A stretch of DNA of 64,000 nt from Prochlorococcus marinus CUG1438. Lineage in GTDB: Bacteria; Cyanobacteriota; Cyanobacteriia; PCC-6307; Cyanobiaceae. The stretch is taken from NCBI GenBank assembly GCA_017644325.1, contig JAEPLS010000001.1:372001-436000 (forward strand). The letters are read 5' to 3'. The notes under the pieces were generated by a model. It had not been told where the DNA came from, did not search any database, and was given only the letters and a program-made list of their open reading frames with translations. Shown in pieces: positions 6,361-12,403 of the stretch (position 1 is the first letter of the stretch; every line of letters begins with the position of its first letter). Position numbers and translations under genes: made by a program.

Positions 6361-6677
6361 TTACTAAAAAAAAACTTCAACTAATAGTATCATAACCGTA
6401 CACACATGCGATATAACTTTAATTTTCAAGATAAAGAGATTAAAAATTATATTCTTTATAGAAAGAATACTTTTATTCTAAAAAAAGCAAAATAAAATCG
6501 ATTAAATCCTTTCTTTATACATTTCTCTTGAGAGAGCGGAACGGTGCTATGTAAAACTAAAAGAAAACCACAGAAGATTTTTTCGCCCAAAAAGACTGCT
6601 ATAACTTAACCACTATTTTGCATATATCTCACTGAAAACCGATTAATTTAAGCTATGACTGAGTCCCTATAATCTAT
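6361..6677. other. Decayed cassette right end between mreB and guaA-end copy A
   Basis: There is no gene here. The right half (about 6525-6677) aligns by eye with the segment left of guaA-end copy C (about 8187-8343). Shared features are a TTTCTCTT-type leader piece, an outer doublet at 6546, the TTTTGCATATATCT inner arm at 6615 and an ACTTAACCA stretch. This looks like the right end of a fifth cassette whose gene and left end have been lost. The left part contains the mreB upstream region. Confidence 0.55.
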
Positions 6678-6694
6678 TTATTCCCACTCAATAG
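6678..6694 (-). repeat. guaA 3'-end copy A (att-core-like)
   Basis: On the minus strand this reads CTATTGAGTGGGAATAA, encoding Ile-Glu-Trp-Glu-stop as at the end of guaA. It is the leftmost of four displaced copies and is flanked by arm-like doublets on both sides. Confidence 0.85.
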
Positions 6695-6755: not shown

Positions 6756-6780
6756 CTCGTGACAAACTCGTGACAAACCG
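6756..6780. repeat. Left arm doublet of cassette A-B
   Basis: A perfect tandem repeat of the 11-mer CTCGTGACAAA (6756-6766 and 6767-6777) is followed by CCG. It starts 75 bp from the guaA-end core at 6681, the same distance as the corresponding doublets right of cores B and C. Confidence 0.8.
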
Positions 6781-6841
6781 AAAAATTCCATTCTTTATAT
6801 TTTTCTTTGTAATTATTATGAACTAATTGTAGAGAAACAAT

Positions 6842-7219
6842 TTAGTCAGAAACTATACAAGTTCCCATTGTAGGCATACTTTCTTTACTCCCTTCAGTAA
6901 TTGATAAATATCTTTCATACAGAGTCCCTTTTTGCTTATCTAATATGGTAATAAAAACATCAGGATAATCATAAGTTTCTGCTAAAACAATAAATTTACT
7001 TGTTTCTTTTAATATTGAAAATTTGAATTTTCCATTTTTAGAAGTCTGCACAAAATAATTTCCAATTCTTTGATATTTTCCTAATTCAACCTCTCCTGGT
7101 CTACCCAAAGCAGAAAGTTCTGAAGAGCAAATATACTCTTCACTCTTTACATTTCCAGTAAAAAAAATAATTGAAGCAAATGATAATAATGCTCCAATAA
7201 AAGCAGTTCGTCTTTTCAT
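6842..7219 (-). CDS. Small exported protein, cassette cargo
   Basis: From the ATG at 7219 this is a 125-residue protein with a signal peptide (MKRRTAF, then a hydrophobic run ending near VKSEE). The mature domain has two cysteines, one near each end (YICSS and GTCIVSD), possibly a disulfide pair. I do not recognise the family. A longer ORF starting at TTG 7321 would run into the arm repeats and is rejected. The leader and first 13 codons closely match those of the gene in the next cassette (start 8129), while the mature parts are unrelated. Confidence 0.65.
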   Translation of the reverse strand: MKRRTAFIGALLSFASIIFFTGNVKSEEYICSSELSALGRPGEVELGKYQRIGNYFVQTSKNGKFKFSILKETSKFIVLAETYDYPDVFITILDKQKGTLYERYLSITEGSKESMPTMGTCIVSD

Positions 7220-7300
7220 ATCAAAAATACTTTTAATTAATATACCAACTGTAGAGAAAATGAACTTTTTGCTATTTCTCTTAAGAGATGAGCAATTAGG

Positions 7301-7325
7301 TCTATGACAAATCCGTGACAAACCG
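7301..7325. repeat. Right arm doublet of cassette A-B
   Basis: TCTATGACAAA (7301-7311) and TCCGTGACAAA (7312-7322) lie head to tail and are followed by CCG. They match the left-end doublet of the same cassette and end 41 bp before the core at 7366. Confidence 0.8.
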
Positions 7326-7362
7326 CAAGAATCAGGATATAAGTAAACTTTTACGCTATAAC

Positions 7363-7379
7363 TTATTCCTACTCAATAG
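7363..7379 (-). repeat. guaA 3'-end copy B (att-core-like)
   Basis: The minus strand reads CTATTGAGTAGGAATAA, preceded by GGAA as in guaA. One base change turns the Trp codon into TAG, so this copy could not serve as a normal guaA end. It separates two cassettes. Confidence 0.85.
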
Positions 7380-7440
7380 TTCCAAGTGTTTTTGATGTTT
7401 CAAAAGCATTGGTATGAATGACTTAAGTGATAGCACCATT

Positions 7441-7465
7441 ATCACGTCAACCCCACGTAAAACCG
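7441..7465. repeat. Left arm doublet of cassette B-C
   Basis: ATCACGTCAAC (7441-7451) and CCCACGTAAAA (7452-7462) are followed by CCG. They start 75 bp from the core at 7366. Confidence 0.75.
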
Positions 7466-7532
7466 ATTACTTCCATTATGTATACTTTGCGTTATGAGTA
7501 TATGAACTAATTTTAAAGAATACTTTTTATTT

Positions 7533-8129
7533 TCAACATTGATTTTCATACCACTTTTGTGAATCTTGATCTCCAAATTTAGATGCTTGTCTCCAATCTA
7601 AACAAGCATCTTTTAAATCCCCTATTTTCTCTTTAGCAATTCCACGATTCCTATAAGCAAGTCCATCCTTACTATCTAATTTTATTGCCTTATTACAATC
7701 AGAAATTGCTCCATAATTATCTCCCAAATTAGTTTTTGCTCCACATAAATTAGTGAATGCTGTTTGCTTGTCAACGTAAATAGAATTATCTAAAGTATTT
7801 ATTGCTATTCCTTTTTCACAATCTTCAACTGCTCCTTGATTAATCTGAAGGTTTAATTTTGCCCCGCATCTTGCAATATAAGCATTAGCGAAATCTGAAT
7901 CTATTTCTATTGCCTTATTAAAATTAGAAACAGCACCATAAAAATCACCGTTATTAAAATCTTTCCTTCCGAGTTTATAGTAACTTCTTGCAGTGTCTGC
8001 ATTTACTTTTTGAGAACTAAGAATAGTTATTCCTGAAGTGGATAAAAATATTCCTGTCTTAATTAATAATGGTTGCCCTAATGGAATTAAAGATAATATT
8101 GCACCAATAAAAGCGGTTCGTTTTTTCAT
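7533..8129 (-). CDS. Exported TPR/Sel1-like repeat protein, cassette cargo
   Basis: This 198-residue protein starts with a signal-type N-terminus (MKKRTAFIGAILS and a long hydrophobic stretch to about residue 42, VNA-D). Three to four TPR units follow, such as YYKLGRKDFNNGDFYGAVSN. Paired cysteines recur at the repeats (ARCGAK, VEDCEKG, NLCGAK, SDCNKA), and it ends in WYENQC. It probably acts as a protein-protein scaffold in the periplasm or thylakoid lumen. Leader DNA and the first codons are nearly shared with the gene starting at 7219. Confidence 0.75.
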   Translation of the reverse strand: MKKRTAFIGAILSLIPLGQPLLIKTGIFLSTSGITILSSQKVNADTARSYYKLGRKDFNNGDFYGAVSNFNKAIEIDSDFANAYIARCGAKLNLQINQGAVEDCEKGIAINTLDNSIYVDKQTAFTNLCGAKTNLGDNYGAISDCNKAIKLDSKDGLAYRNRGIAKEKIGDLKDACLDWRQASKFGDQDSQKWYENQC

Positions 8130-8211
8130 ATCAAAATTTACTTTTAATCAATATACCAACTGTAGAGAAAACAGACTTTATAAGATTTCTCTTTAGAATC
8201 GATCAATTAGG

Positions 8212-8236
8212 TCAAAGTAAAACCCACGTAAAACTG
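8212..8236. repeat. Right outer arm doublet of cassette B-C
   Basis: TCAAAGTAAAA (8212-8222) and CCCACGTAAAA (8223-8233) are followed by CTG. The second 11-mer is identical to the left-end copy of this cassette at 7452. The doublet starts 135 bp before core C, the same distance as the outer doublet of core A. Confidence 0.75.
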
Positions 8237-8282
8237 CACTAGAGTTTATCGCTCAAGGGCAAAACTATGACTTAACCATTAT

Positions 8283-8307
8283 TTTGCATATATCTAACGT
8301 AAAGCCG
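8283..8307. repeat. Right inner arm pair of cassette B-C
   Basis: TTTGCATATAT (8283-8293) and CTAACGTAAAG (8294-8304) are followed by CCG, 40 bp before the core at 8347. An almost identical pair (TTTGCATATAT, CTCACTGAAAA, CCG; 6617-6641) precedes core A at the same distance. Confidence 0.7.
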
Positions 8308-8343
8308 ATAATTTTAAGTTATAACTGGGTTCTTAAAATCCGT

Positions 8344-8360
8344 TTATTCCCACTCAATAG
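8344..8360 (-). repeat. guaA 3'-end copy C (att-core-like)
   Basis: The minus strand reads CTATTGAGTGGGAATAA, encoding Ile-Glu-Trp-Glu-stop. Similarity to the guaA locus continues downstream: the sequence TATAACTGGGTT occurs at the same relative position beside this copy and beside guaA itself. Confidence 0.85.
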
Positions 8361-8421
8361 AACCATCGTAAAAGACCCCTCAACTTCTATTGGTATGATT
8401 GACATGTGTAAAATCATAAGT

Positions 8422-8443
8422 TTCGCAACAAACCAGCAACAAA
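8422..8443. repeat. Left arm doublet of cassette C-D
   Basis: TTCGCAACAAA (8422-8432) and CCAGCAACAAA (8433-8443) start 75 bp from the core at 8347. Confidence 0.8.
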
Positions 8444-8514
8444 GTTAAACCAATAATTCTTTATACTTTTGAACGATATTTATTTAAGTATGTAGAAAGT
8501 CAATAATAAAAAAT

Positions 8515-8985
8515 CTACTTTTGAAAGCATGTTCCGTAATGAAGAGAAAAAGAATACCCACGATTATCTTGCATATGATTTGCGGTAGAAATTTTCATTG
8601 AATTTAAATCTAGTGTCATAGTTGTTGAAGCAAGACCACCATTTAATGTTTCCATTTCCTCTTTCCTAAAAGCAACTATCTTATTATTTTTATCATTCAT
8701 AATATTAAAATAATAAATTAGATCATAATTTTTCCCTTCAAAAAAAAGGGTCTCTCTTTTAACTACTATCTTATTTATTTGATTAACTTCCAAATCCCAA
8801 TTCATATTTTTAATATTTTCCCAAACCTCTCCTTCCCATCTTTGAATATGTGTTTTAACATCACAGTTTAATTTAATAGTTTGAGCATTTAATTTTTCAG
8901 AAAACATAAAAAGAAAAAGTGGATTTATTAAAAAACTTATCGGTATTAAAAATTTACAAAAATATTTTCTGAATTGAATAGACAA
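8515..8985 (-). CDS. Small exported protein, cassette cargo
   Basis: This 156-residue protein starts at TTG 8985, the only start that retains the signal peptide. A hydrophobic segment spans about residues 10-28, with probable cleavage after LNAQ. The mature part has two cysteines (LNCDVK and GTCFQK), again one near each end. I do not recognise the family, but size, export signal and terminal cysteine pair resemble the cargo at 6842-7219. It lies entirely between the arms of one cassette. Confidence 0.6.
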   Translation of the reverse strand: MSIQFRKYFCKFLIPISFLINPLFLFMFSEKLNAQTIKLNCDVKTHIQRWEGEVWENIKNMNWDLEVNQINKIVVKRETLFFEGKNYDLIYYFNIMNDKNNKIVAFRKEEMETLNGGLASTTMTLDLNSMKISTANHMQDNRGYSFSLHYGTCFQK

Positions 8986-9058
8986 AACCTTAAGAACAAA
9001 AATTACTCTTAAAAGAAATTTAATAATAATTGATTTCTACATGAAGAGAAAAAAATAT

Positions 9059-9080
9059 TTTGCAATAAACTTGCAACAAA
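9059..9080. repeat. Right outer arm doublet of cassette C-D
   Basis: TTTGCAATAAA (9059-9069) and CTTGCAACAAA (9070-9080) share the GCAACAAA signature with the left end at 8422. They start 136 bp before the core at 9195. Confidence 0.75.
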
Positions 9081-9129
9081 TATAAGTATTAATATCTTAG
9101 TTATATTCAAATTTTATCTTTAAAGATTT

Positions 9130-9154
9130 AGTAAAACAAACTCCCAACAAACCG
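9130..9154. repeat. Right inner arm doublet of cassette C-D
   Basis: AGTAAAACAAA (9130-9140) and CTCCCAACAAA (9141-9151) are followed by CCG, ending 41 bp before the core at 9195. Confidence 0.75.
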
Positions 9155-9191
9155 CAAGAATGGCGATATGACTACACTTTAACCCTATGGT

Positions 9192-9208
9192 TTATTCCCA
9201 CTCAATAA
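9192..9208 (-). repeat. guaA 3'-end copy D (att-core-like)
   Basis: The minus strand reads TTATTGAGTGGGAATAA after GGAGGTA, encoding Ile-Ile-Glu-Trp-Glu-stop. It is the closest displaced copy to the real guaA end and bounds the three-gene cassette. Confidence 0.85.
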
Positions 9209-9277
9209 TACCTCCAAAAAGGTGAATAAAAAGGACAGTTATATCAAGGGGTTTGAGCTAATTATAACACAAATTTT

Positions 9278-9301
9278 TCTACGGGAAACCCTCGGGAAAC
9301 C
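9278..9301. repeat. Left arm doublet of cassette D-guaA
   Basis: TCTACGGGAAA (9278-9288) and CCCTCGGGAAA (9289-9299) are followed by CC. They start 83 bp from the core at 9195, slightly farther than the 75 bp in the other three cassettes. Confidence 0.8.
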
Positions 9302-9365
9302 TATAGTTTGAGGCGCAATATTTGTCATATTGACAGGATAATTAAAATTAATATAAAAAATCATT

Positions 9366-9716
9366 TTGAAAAAACTATTTCTTCTATTATTAATATTTGG
9401 TTTTAATACCCCTGCTAATACAGAACAATATAAAAGGCACAAATATACCTGCCCAGAATCGCAAGGTGAATGTACTGAAGGCGAAAGAGCAGCAATTAAA
9501 TTAGTTAATAACAACTATTGGAAAATGCTTACAAAAAGGATTGAACGTAATACTCATTACAAATATCCTTGGTATTGGATTTATAAAAGGGGAGAATGCA
9601 AATATGCAGTCGGAGCAAAAGAGGATATGTCTACTCATACAGTCACTATGGAATGGATAGATGTTGATATTTGCGAGAAGACCACTAAGTTAATAGATCT
9701 TAGTCGTCGTAGGTAA
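9366..9716 (+). CDS. Small exported protein, first gene of cassette operon
   Basis: This 116-residue protein begins at TTG with MKKLFLLLLIFGFN, a clear signal peptide probably cleaved after ANT-E. The mature part has four cysteines (TCPES, GECTE, GECKY, DICEK) and many aromatic and charged residues, so a disulfide-stabilised periplasmic protein is plausible. I do not recognise the family. Its TAA shares one base with the ATG of the next gene (TAATG), indicating coupled translation. Confidence 0.65.
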   Translation: MKKLFLLLLIFGFNTPANTEQYKRHKYTCPESQGECTEGERAAIKLVNNNYWKMLTKRIERNTHYKYPWYWIYKRGECKYAVGAKEDMSTHTVTMEWIDVDICEKTTKLIDLSRRR

Positions 9717-10279
9717 TGAAACTCTTACTCCTTTTGCCACTTTTATTAGGTTTTATTCCTTCAGTTAAAGCAGATTCATTTTGCACTCTCATAAGTGAAT
9801 CAGAACCAAATGTCTCGCTTAAAATGCATAAACCATATGGAGGTTGGGGTGTTGGAACTTTAAGTTATAAAAATGACCCAGAATATCTCTTAAAAATTGG
9901 AATCTCAAATGGTTATGGAGGTCAATATTATCACTTGAAAAATTATTTACCCAATTCAATATCTTATGATCCGAAACTTAAATATCACTACCTAAAACAT
10001 GAAAAACTAGAAACAATAGGTTATGGACCCTTCGTTAATTTTGTTGGAAACCAGTTAGCAAGATCAACCCCGGAAGCACATAGAAAATCAGGAAAACTTA
10101 AAGCATTTATGCCAAATTTAGCGTCTCTTTATTACTATTCTCTCTCAGGTAATACAAAAAAAGGAGAATATGGGAGATTTAATCTTTCAACAAAGATGGA
10201 ATCAATCTTGAATGCATCGGAAGGATTTTTTATTGACTCTGGTGGATGTAGAAAATATTTTGCTTATGGATGGGATTAG
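9716..10279 (+). CDS. Small exported protein, second gene of cassette operon
   Basis: This 187-residue protein has the signal peptide MKLLLLLPLLLGFIPSVKA-D. The mature domain is rich in glycine, tyrosine and lysine (KPYGGWGVGTLSYKND, ISNGYGGQYYHL), with one cysteine near each end (SFCTL, GGCRK). I do not recognise a family. Start codon and upstream stop overlap by one base, and the gene's own stop overlaps the next start, so the three genes form a tight operon. Confidence 0.65.
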   Translation: MKLLLLLPLLLGFIPSVKADSFCTLISESEPNVSLKMHKPYGGWGVGTLSYKNDPEYLLKIGISNGYGGQYYHLKNYLPNSISYDPKLKYHYLKHEKLETIGYGPFVNFVGNQLARSTPEAHRKSGKLKAFMPNLASLYYYSLSGNTKKGEYGRFNLSTKMESILNASEGFFIDSGGCRKYFAYGWD

Positions 10280-10674
10280 TGAATAAATTTAGTTTATTGT
10301 CCTTGTTTTTTTTAACTTTCTTATCTCCAATAAAATCCGAAATGCAGGAAAATAAAGAATATTCGAAGTATTCTTTTTATTCACAATGTTTAGACAAATC
10401 AGAACTAAAAATGAATAACGGATTAGTTATTGGATGTTCTTTGCAAGCACAAGAAAAACTTGATGCTCTCATCAAAATAAGAATCAATTCAAAAGGAAAA
10501 TGTTATGGGATATATGCATCTCATGCTTGCACATTAAAAAAAAGTCAAGAGGCATTTGAGAAATATGTTAATGCTACATGTAAAGAAAATAGATATGGTG
10601 GGCATTACGAATATTGCGAAATGATGCTCAAAAAAGATAGGTTAAAATGGTTAGATAAGACCTTAGGCACTTAA
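10279..10674 (+). CDS. Small exported cysteine-rich protein, third gene of cassette operon
   Basis: Starting at GTG 10279 (TAGTG overlap, like the TAATG upstream) the protein has about 131 residues; an in-frame ATG at 10270 would add three. The N-terminus is a signal peptide ending near IKSE. Six cysteines lie in the mature part (SQCLD, IGCSL, GKCYG, HACTL, ATCKE, EYCEM). The pattern recalls small cysteine-rich periplasmic proteins such as LprI/DUF1311, but only faintly. Function unknown. Confidence 0.6.
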   Translation: MNKFSLLSLFFLTFLSPIKSEMQENKEYSKYSFYSQCLDKSELKMNNGLVIGCSLQAQEKLDALIKIRINSKGKCYGIYASHACTLKKSQEAFEKYVNATCKENRYGGHYEYCEMMLKKDRLKWLDKTLGT

Positions 10675-10755
10675 TAAAGCATATTTTGAAAGATTTTGGC
10701 AACCTTTAATGAATTTTTGCTTCCTTAGATCCATTGGAAATAGGTTTATAAAATT

Positions 10756-10779
10756 TCCACGGGAAAGCCAGGGAAACCA
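10756..10779. repeat. Right arm doublet beside guaA
   Basis: TCCACGGGAAA (10756-10766) and GCCAGGGAAA (10767-10776) are followed by CCA. They match the left end of the same cassette at 9278. The doublet ends 41 bp before the guaA-end core (10820), the same spacing as at cores B and D. Confidence 0.8.
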
Positions 10780-10816: not shown

Positions 10817-10833
10817 TCACTCCCACTCAATAG
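10817..10833 (-). repeat. guaA 3' end serving as att core (copy E)
   Basis: The minus strand reads CTATTGAGTGGGAGTGA, the authentic end of guaA. Copies A to D repeat it with TAA or a point change. Bacterial guaA 3' ends are known insertion hotspots for tyrosine-recombinase elements. Confidence 0.8.
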
Positions 10834-12403
10834 TTCCAGGAGGCTTGCTTGTAATATCATAAACAACTCTATTCACTGAATTTACTTCATTAACGATTCT
10901 ATTTGAAATTCTCTCTAAAATTTGAAAAGGTATTTTTGACCAGTCTGCAGTCATCCCATCTTCACTAGATACGCAACGTAAAACTATTGGCCAAGCATAT
11001 GTTCTTTTATCCCCCATAACTCCTACAGTTTTTACGGGTAATAATACTGCAAAAGCCTGCCATATATCATCATAAAGACCTGACTTCTTAATTTCATCTC
11101 TAACTATCCAATCTGCATCTCTCAAACATTCAAGTTTTTCGTTGGTAACCTCTCCCAGAATTCTTATAGCCAACCCTGGTCCTGGGAAAGGATGTCTTTT
11201 TATGATTTGATCAGGCAAACCCAAAGCAGTACCTAATTTTCTGACTTCATCCTTAAAAAGCGTTCTCAATGGCTCGACTAATTTAAATTGTAAATCTTTG
11301 GGTAATCCGCCCACATTATGATGACTCTTTATTTTTACAGCTATTCTCTCACCTGTATTTGGATCAATATTAGTACCAGCACTTTCGATAACATCGGGAT
11401 ATAGAGTACCTTGTGCAAGGTACTGAAAAGGGCCTAGTCTATTACTTTCTTCTTCAAATACTCTAATAAATTCTTCACCAATAATTTTCCTTTTTTGTTC
11501 TGGATCAGTAATCCCCTTTAATTTTGCAATAAACCTTTCCCTTGCATTGATATATTCAACCTTAATATGAAATTTCTTATCAAAAAAATCCATTAAAAAT
11601 TCAGGTTCACCTTTTCTCATAAAACCTTGATCTATAAACATACAAGTCAGATTATTTCCAATCGCTTTATTGAGAAGAAAAGCAAGAGTTGAAGAGTCAA
11701 CTCCTCCTGACAATGCGAGTAAAACTTTCTTATTGCAAACTTGCTCTCTTATGGTCGGAATAGTTTCCTCTAAAAAAGTCTCAGTTGTCCAATCCGCTGA
11801 ACAACTAGATATTTTGTAAACGAAATTTTTAATTACTGCCATTCCATACTCTGAATGAATGACTTCAGGATGAAATTGAACACCATATAATTTCCTTCTA
11901 TCATTTGCAATTGCCGCATGAATTGTGTTCTCAGTATGCGCAATTTTATTAAATCCATCAGGCAAAGAATTTATTGAATCGCCATGACTCATCCACATTA
12001 TGGATTTATCCATTACATCAGAGAGAAGGTCGCATTCTAAATCTATATTTAATGGTGCTCTGCCGTACTCAGCTTTTTTATTTGCAGAAATTACAGTTCC
12101 TCCAAGTTCTTTGACCATTAATTGCATTCCATAGCATATACCAAAAATAGGAATGCCTAAATCAAAAATTTTTTCATCACACTTGGGAGCATTTTGTTCA
12201 TAAACAGAATTCGGTCCCCCACTTAAAATGATCCCTTGTGGATTAATATTATTAATATCTTGGATTGAAATACGATTACTAACAACAAGAGAATAAACAT
12301 TAATTTCTCTAATTCTTCTAGCAATCAACTCAGAATATTGAGATCCGAAATCTAAAATTAATATTGAGGGATCTCTTTCTTTTTTTAAAGATTTTTGACT
12401 CAT
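10817..12403 (-). CDS. guaA: GMP synthase (glutamine-hydrolysing)
   Basis: GuaA converts XMP to GMP using glutamine and ATP. The 528-residue protein has the class I amidotransferase domain first (nucleophile in GICYGMQLM near residue 87; FHPEVIHSE histidine and glutamate near 176). The ATP-pyrophosphatase domain follows with P-loop ALSGGVDSS near residue 229, then the dimerisation domain ending PGTIEWE. The length is normal. It follows cbiD on the same strand with a 48-base gap. The last codons are the sequence repeated through the downstream cassette array. Confidence 0.97.

Follow-up and report, generated by a model that had tools for sequence, protein, structure and literature searches.

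Among the closest described counterparts of the locus reported here are the cis-mobilizable elements (CIMEs) and microCIMEs in streptococcal islands of integrative and conjugative elements (ICEs) and integrative and mobilizable elements (IMEs). They have no integrase, keep the attachment sites attL and attR, lie one after another at a housekeeping gene's 3' end and are very common; cargo-bearing CIMEs measure 1.2-13 kb and gene-less microCIMEs 130-220 bp (PMC7563491). The island GIsul2 uses a site at the guaA 3' end, GAGTGGGA, forms tandem attL/attLR/attR arrangements and has an integrase that also moves one island unit independently (PMC9376610). Epsilon15-type integration targets the guaA 3' end too, and mobile-element recombinases are marked by an N-terminal arm-binding domain, with which they read accessory arm sites (PMC8138268). 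For Prochlorococcus itself, tycheposons are described as tyrosine-recombinase cargo islands with tRNA genes as targets (PMC10872708). Here we analyse an array of small cassettes between guaA, the gene for GMP synthase, and mreB in a 64,000-nucleotide stretch of the Prochlorococcus marinus CUG1438 genome (the window; contig JAEPLS010000001.1, positions 372,001 to 436,000).

The cassettes are divided by copies of a 13-bp core from the guaA 3' end, and near their ends they carry head-to-tail pairs of 11-mers (doublets). We consider it highly likely that they are attachment-site elements of the lambda/Tn916 type, whose integrases have the guaA core in common but each work with arm sites of their own. 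The best reading of the window array is a stack of integrase-less, CIME-like units. The evidence comes from genome assemblies, and recombination events are deduced from sequence. No report of a guaA array in Prochlorococcus was found in the open-access literature.

Doublet anatomy and the pairing of cassette ends

The guaA-downstream regions of about 100 genomes of the same genus were cut at the core repeats, which gave 91 units; pairing statistics were computed on cassettes longer than 400 bp (n=70, from 46 Prochlorococcus loci). The doublets repeat at exactly 11 bp, periods of 10 or 12 showing no excess, and occupy three fixed sites. The guaA-side end carries up to two of them, A starting about 42 bp past the guaA-side core and B about 103 bp past it (about 61 bp beyond A), and the far end carries one, C, starting about 93 bp ahead of the far core. 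The original prediction had described tandem 11-mers next to every core, usually followed by CCG. The 11-mers it quoted for the window are all present in place and the tandem arrangement beside the cores is borne out, but the trailing CCG is not general, and the quoted pairs mix the two guaA-side sites, being A-C for cassettes 1 and 4 and B-C for cassettes 2 and 3.

When the ends of a cassette are joined, the order C-core-A-B results, which by analogy is the layout of a lambda/Tn916-like attP. In such a joined attP there are arm sites to either side of the core, C before it and A and B after it, each at a constant distance. An A-B spacer resembling CCTATTTGCAATGGAT / CCTATTTGCAATGGATTTGAGCATGG recurs across several arm types (L148-L154); our guess is that it is a candidate DNA-bending, accessory-protein or excisionase site.

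Doublets occupy 36/70 end windows on the left and 47/70 on the right (51-67%), compared with 26/2463 interior windows (1.1%) and 2.1% of shuffles, and so are not equally common in random AT-rich DNA. The guaA-proximal site holds an arm doublet in 57 of the 103 sampled guaA loci. In cassettes 1 and 2 the doublets lie in AT-rich intergenic DNA close to gene starts, where promoter or repressor boxes of the cargo, duplicated alongside it, might also be expected. Such regulatory sites are scarcely credible as an explanation, given that the orientation of the doublets and their distance from the cores are constant at both ends whatever the cargo, that doublets are also found in gene-less 140-bp units, and that the pairing described below is absent from control windows.

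The two ends of a cassette match. The best 20-nt identity within a cassette averaged 16.11, against 13.53 (standard deviation 0.20) when partners were permuted, a value reached in 0/10000 permutations, so that the predicted rule of one variant at both ends, differing between cassettes, extends from the window to related strains. Control windows, both core-proximal and inner to the doublets, were flat and showed no pairing excess. For the four cassettes of the window, the true left/right pairing ranks top of 24 possible. Within single loci, own pairs scored 16.24 and mismatched pairs from the same locus 13.08, while doublets of different cassettes facing each other across one core scored 13.17; end matching is therefore not a property of the junction. 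Typing by regular expression gave the same type at both ends in 39/53 cassettes, where 10.2 were expected and 10000 permutations yielded 22 at most. Adjoining cassettes shared a type in 1/15 pairs against 19% expected, in a small sample.

A switch of arm type can be followed between cassette 4 and the cassette L061, whose far ends can be aligned closely along 193 bp that take in the core and the beginning of the cargo; the products of their far-end cargo genes are 78% identical. The same position differs in both doublet copies, giving TTTCCC in cassette 4 and TTTCAC in L061, and each doublet matches its own guaA-side end. The address changed jointly at both ends on a shared background.

Matching ends might also arise by concerted evolution, in which recombination between end repeats homogenises them and yields short remnants, with no need for distinct recombinases. 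The remnants do resemble exact fusions of left and right ends at the doublet, as would result if the stretch between the end doublets were deleted. Against this, homologous recombination would have very little to work with in 22 bp, the sequences flanking the doublets are unlike between the two ends, and the same type system is found in integrase-bearing elements. We regard concerted evolution as unlikely.

Integrase-bearing elements with the same arm types

A tyrosine recombinase gene flanked by one of the doublet types and a guaA core had been predicted to identify the driver of these cassettes. Seven elements of this kind were found, six in Prochlorococcus and one in Synechococcus. PF00589 matches near guaA in two genomes (G009 and G042) defined an integrase family of 454-491 amino acids (aa); a profile search placed the family in 5/266 genomes of the genus, and a scan of GTDB genomes added AG-409-O23 and Synechococcus AG-679-A04. 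This prevalence is a lower bound because the assemblies are partly single-cell.

In 7/7 drivers the integrase gene lies downstream of the guaA core, behind A and B doublets of the same type (GTTTCCCGTGA, GTCTCACCCAA, GTTTGTTGCGA, GTTTCACACGA, ACTACCCCGTG, GATCACACACA and GATCACACATA; B is a single copy in some). The far end could be assigned securely in five of the seven, and 5/5 carry the guaA-side type there (TTTCCCGTG, TTTGTTGCG, TTTCACACG, TCACACACA and CTCACCC). The contig of the Synechococcus driver stops short of the far core, and in the AG-321-E21 element, which looks composite, a TTTCCC-type site precedes the next core. Two driver types, TTTCCC (AH-716-K03) and TTTGTTG (AG-402-M15), are those of window cassettes 4 and 3.

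By gene content the driver elements look like small integrative plasmids. Four of the annotated drivers share a protein of 216-266 aa with an H-x-H motif, HUH Rep-like by eye and with no Pfam match, a second protein of 314-327 aa and, near the far end, a serine-recombinase-like gene (Pfam-confirmed in two). A primase-helicase-like protein of 631-663 aa is present in two drivers, and no capsid or conjugation genes were recognised among the scanned driver-element proteins. Public phage and plasmid records held no relatives of the guaA integrase. Two single-protein scans of viral contigs found none either, an alignment scan there gave only 23%-identical partial matches, and core-plus-doublet patterns were absent from the viral contigs. 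The same kind of pattern scan found no match in the window genome, because the doublets there are too degenerate to be caught by it.

In the AlphaFold model, the AH-716-K03 integrase begins with a strand-rich N-domain (strands 11-16, 30-34, 48-52 and 60-63, helix 69-89; blocks of predicted local distance difference test score 80-90), followed by a helical core-binding domain and a catalytic domain. Foldseek ranked the Tn1549 integrase first and also returned XerH, XerA and full-length lambda integrase. The solved proteins are 12-19% identical to it in sequence. TM-scores are modest and full-length root-mean-square deviations large, probably because the domains are arranged differently. The sequence profile of this integrase also matches Tn1549 Int. 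Taken together, the PF00589 match, the model and the structural matches to Tn1549 and lambda integrases point to a three-domain, putatively arm-binding recombinase, and the arm sites would on this model be recognised by the N-domain. A specific covariation of arm type with the integrase N-domain was considered and is unsupported among the seven proteins.

Several observations weigh against the interpretation of the cassettes as att-site elements with private arms. The TTTGTCA and TTTTAC types of window cassettes 1 and 2 have no driver among the elements found. About one quarter of the cassettes typed at both ends mismatch by regular expression; some of these are misclassified, while others look composite or decayed. 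Among the seven integrases, arm similarity tracks the whole protein (core-binding domain, rho 0.55; catalytic domain, rho 0.61), and its correlation with the N-domain is lower (rho 0.36, p 0.11).

The sole PF00589 protein of the window genome has 389 aa, is widespread across the genus and is encoded away from guaA, near a cobO-like gene. Being the only such protein in the genome and present in most genomes of the genus, it might be supposed to move all cassettes as a single conserved resident recombinase. One protein would leave several address types in one genome unexplained, however, its similarity to the guaA integrases is limited to a short catalytic-domain match, and cognate integrases of several types exist. 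We therefore disfavour this protein as the driver and judge the idea very improbable. Two separate observations concern tyrosine recombinases in the genus. The 389-aa protein (G000:C3:54763-55191, L026) shows no signs of mobility. Another integrase family, of 330-359 aa (L034 and comparable loci, at about 370 kb in complete genomes), occupies a similar chromosomal position in many genomes of the genus and is possibly of the tRNA-targeting (tycheposon) type.

Insertion, orphan cassettes and the window array

Of 63 cassette-bearing loci, 28 have a stretch of at least 200 bp beyond the last core that is 85-99% identical to the sequence immediately following guaA in empty strains, taken from a strict list of cassette-free strains; empty-strain DNA stood directly after guaA in 0/63. 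This footprint is that of precise insertion at the core, with the guaA end restored. Together with the driver elements, it supports the original prediction that related recombinases of differing specificity brought in each cassette as one unit.

The window genome, assembled in four contigs and rated complete, has no guaA-type integrase, which makes its cassettes orphans. Integrases are present in 5/70 of the large cassettes analysed. At the other extreme are 21 gene-less units of 112-162 bp, which mostly consist of one shared doublet between two cores. Among the cargo of larger cassettes are restriction-modification genes of types I and IIG, further methyltransferases and TPR proteins. The largest cargo cluster (20 cassette open reading frames (ORFs), for example in L017, L019, L071, L085, L119 and L124) has TPR repeats, fused in one member to a methyltransferase domain, and turns up again in many cassettes. 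In three loci (L119, L120 and L121, in genomes G173, G213 and G120), two guaA cores some 7 kb apart stand on either side of chromosomal mreB and murA; in L121 this segment is also bracketed by TTTCAC doublets that match, as if core genes had been enclosed in a cassette.

These data bear on whether the array is pure debris, that is, decayed and immobile relics kept by chance or host benefit, whose paired arms are a fossil of a past recombinase. Such a view shares the att-site reading and differs on present mobility. It would account for the lack of a guaA-type integrase in the window genome, the rarity of the integrase in the genus, the partly degenerate window doublets (cassette 2 site A and cassette 3 doublet A) and the short remnants. 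On the other hand, many orphans retain identical end doublets (20/20 nt in several), and related cargo is seen in elements that differ in arm type and strain, which suggests continuing exchange. We give the debris view serious weight, at somewhat short of an even chance.

The array fills the interval between guaA and mreB (6360-5293), which the cores divide into four cassettes and a fifth, decayed unit adjoining mreB (Table 1). The core, TCCCACTCAATAG (CTATTGAGTGGGA in guaA sense), occurs five times and is kept at the guaA 3' end in relatives. Allowing at most one mismatch to CCCACTCAATA, there are 7 matches in the window compared with 0.62 expected.

Table 1. Positions of guaA, cores, doublets and cargo in the window
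Feature	Coordinates	Strand	Sequence or remark
guaA (GMP synthase)	10817..12403	-	host target gene, 3' end as putative attB
Core 1, within guaA 3' end	10821..10833	-	CTATTGAGTGGGA
Cassette 4 guaA-side doublet A	10756..10777	-	TTTCCC type; GTTTCCCTGGC/TTTCCCGTGGA
Cassette 4 cargo	9366..10674	+	three small ORFs (116, 187, 134 aa)
Cassette 4 far-end doublet C	9278..9299	-	TTTCCC type; GTTTCCCGAGG then GTTTCCCGTAGA
Core 2	9196..9208	-	TTATTGAGTGGGA
Cassette 3 doublet A	9131..9152	-	TTTGTTG type; GTTTGTTGGGA/GTTTGTTTTAC
Cassette 3 doublet B	9059..9080	-	TTTGTTGCAAG/TTTATTGCAAA; copy quoted in the original prediction
Cassette 3 cargo ORF	8515..8985	-	156 aa, looks secreted; homologues in cassettes of L081 and L122
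Cassette 3 far-end doublet C	8422..8443	-	TTTGTTGCTGG/TTTGTTGCGAA
Core 3	8348..8360	-	
Cassette 2 site A	8294..8308	-	one degenerate copy (GGCTTTACGTTAG)
Cassette 2 doublet B	8212..8233	-	TTTTACGTGGG/TTTTACTTTGA
Cassette 2 cargo ORF	7533..8129	-	198 aa, signal-like N-terminus then TPR repeats
Cassette 2 far-end doublet C	7441..7462	-	TTTTACGTGGG/GTTGACGTGAT
Core 4	7367..7379	-	CTATTGAGTAGGA
Cassette 1 doublet A	7301..7322	-	TTTGTCACGGA/TTTGTCATAGA
Cassette 1 cargo ORF	6842..7219	-	begins MKRRTAFIGA, looks secreted, no Pfam match
Cassette 1 far-end doublet C	6756..6777	-	TTTGTCACGAG twice, exact tandem
Core 5	6682..6694	-	

Cargo in the window is limited to small ORFs that look secreted, with a Pfam match (TPR) in cassette 2 alone. 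The N-termini of the cassette 4 ORFs are signal-peptide-like by eye; Pfam matches were found for 0/3, and two have homologues in other strains' elements. The gene starts in cassettes 1 and 2 (an MKxRTAFIGA signal-like peptide; 7179-7327 and 8089-8238) are 76-90% identical, although the doublets of the two cassettes differ. Past core 5, positions 6382-6682 hold a decayed guaA-side arm of the TTTTAC type, so the array once had at least five units.

Proposed mechanism and comparison with known systems

In the model that we favour, the doublets are putative integrase arm-binding sites of complex, lambda/Tn916-like attachment sites, and each cassette would be, or derive from, an integrative element placed at the guaA 3' end by an arm-binding tyrosine recombinase. 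All recombinases would have one core in common, with GAGTGGG as the likely overlap, while each lineage would use its own 11-bp arm address in head-to-tail pairs at A, B and C, and hence show the same address at both ends of the element. Probably an enzyme encoded on the rare larger elements inserts cassettes with the same tag types. Repeated insertion at the cores would build a stacked array, most of whose members may have lost, or never had, an integrase and would persist as orphan cargo cassettes, down to gene-less remnants of about 140 bp. An incoming integrase with a matching address could move these orphans in trans; we infer both such helper-driven movement and the order in which the array members were inserted.

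More tentatively, and at a probability well under one half, the arms may act as an address code, in which the common core opens the guaA site to all and the private arms limit each integrase to its own cassettes. If so, the orphan cargo cassettes would form a shared gene pool that rare drivers serve in trans, in an integron-like system addressed by arm sites rather than by folded sites. An integron cassette array proper was considered and set aside: the junctions tested have no long inverted repeats (attC), and the sole integrase-like gene lies away from the array.

Prochlorococcus is an ocean bacterium among Earth's most abundant photosynthesizers, and the guaA locus reveals a widespread non-tRNA insertion hotspot in it. 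The analysis names a candidate integrase family together with its arm types, and the arm types offer a way to trace which orphan islands might move with which driver. Many arm types on one core also make a natural test of whether arms give element-level specificity in tandem arrays.

Tycheposons, as described, resemble these elements as tyrosine-recombinase cargo islands of the same host genus; they differ in target, 7/7 drivers here being at guaA and the window having no tRNA gene, and the guaA elements have their own integrase family (PMC10872708). With Tn916/Tn1549 and lambda, the guaA elements share a three-domain recombinase with a predicted N-terminal arm-binding domain and arms that flank the core, but they are site-specific for guaA, and their arm sites at A, B and C are head-to-tail doublets with a strict 11-bp period. 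GIsul2 and epsilon15 likewise insert at the guaA 3' end, and the core GAGTGGGA is the same in the Prochlorococcus elements. The best BLASTP match of the cyanobacterial integrase to epsilon15 Int, however, has E=1.5, which is not significant, and epsilon15 Int has PF13356, which the cyanobacterial integrases do not. The shared site is therefore probably a convergent choice of a good target.

As in CIMEs, cores and paired arm doublets at both cassette ends correspond to flanking attL and attR, the window cassettes have small cargo ORFs and none of their own recombination or transfer genes, and the guaA remnants come close to the microCIME size class. The cassettes differ from CIMEs in their putative parents, which here are small elements with the HUH-Rep-like candidate, its partner of about 320 aa, a serine recombinase and sometimes a primase-helicase, and with no recognised conjugation genes among the scanned proteins. 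The target here is guaA, and the paired arm type is explicit. The system is best described as CIME-like arrays whose integrative elements target guaA and have arm types of their own.

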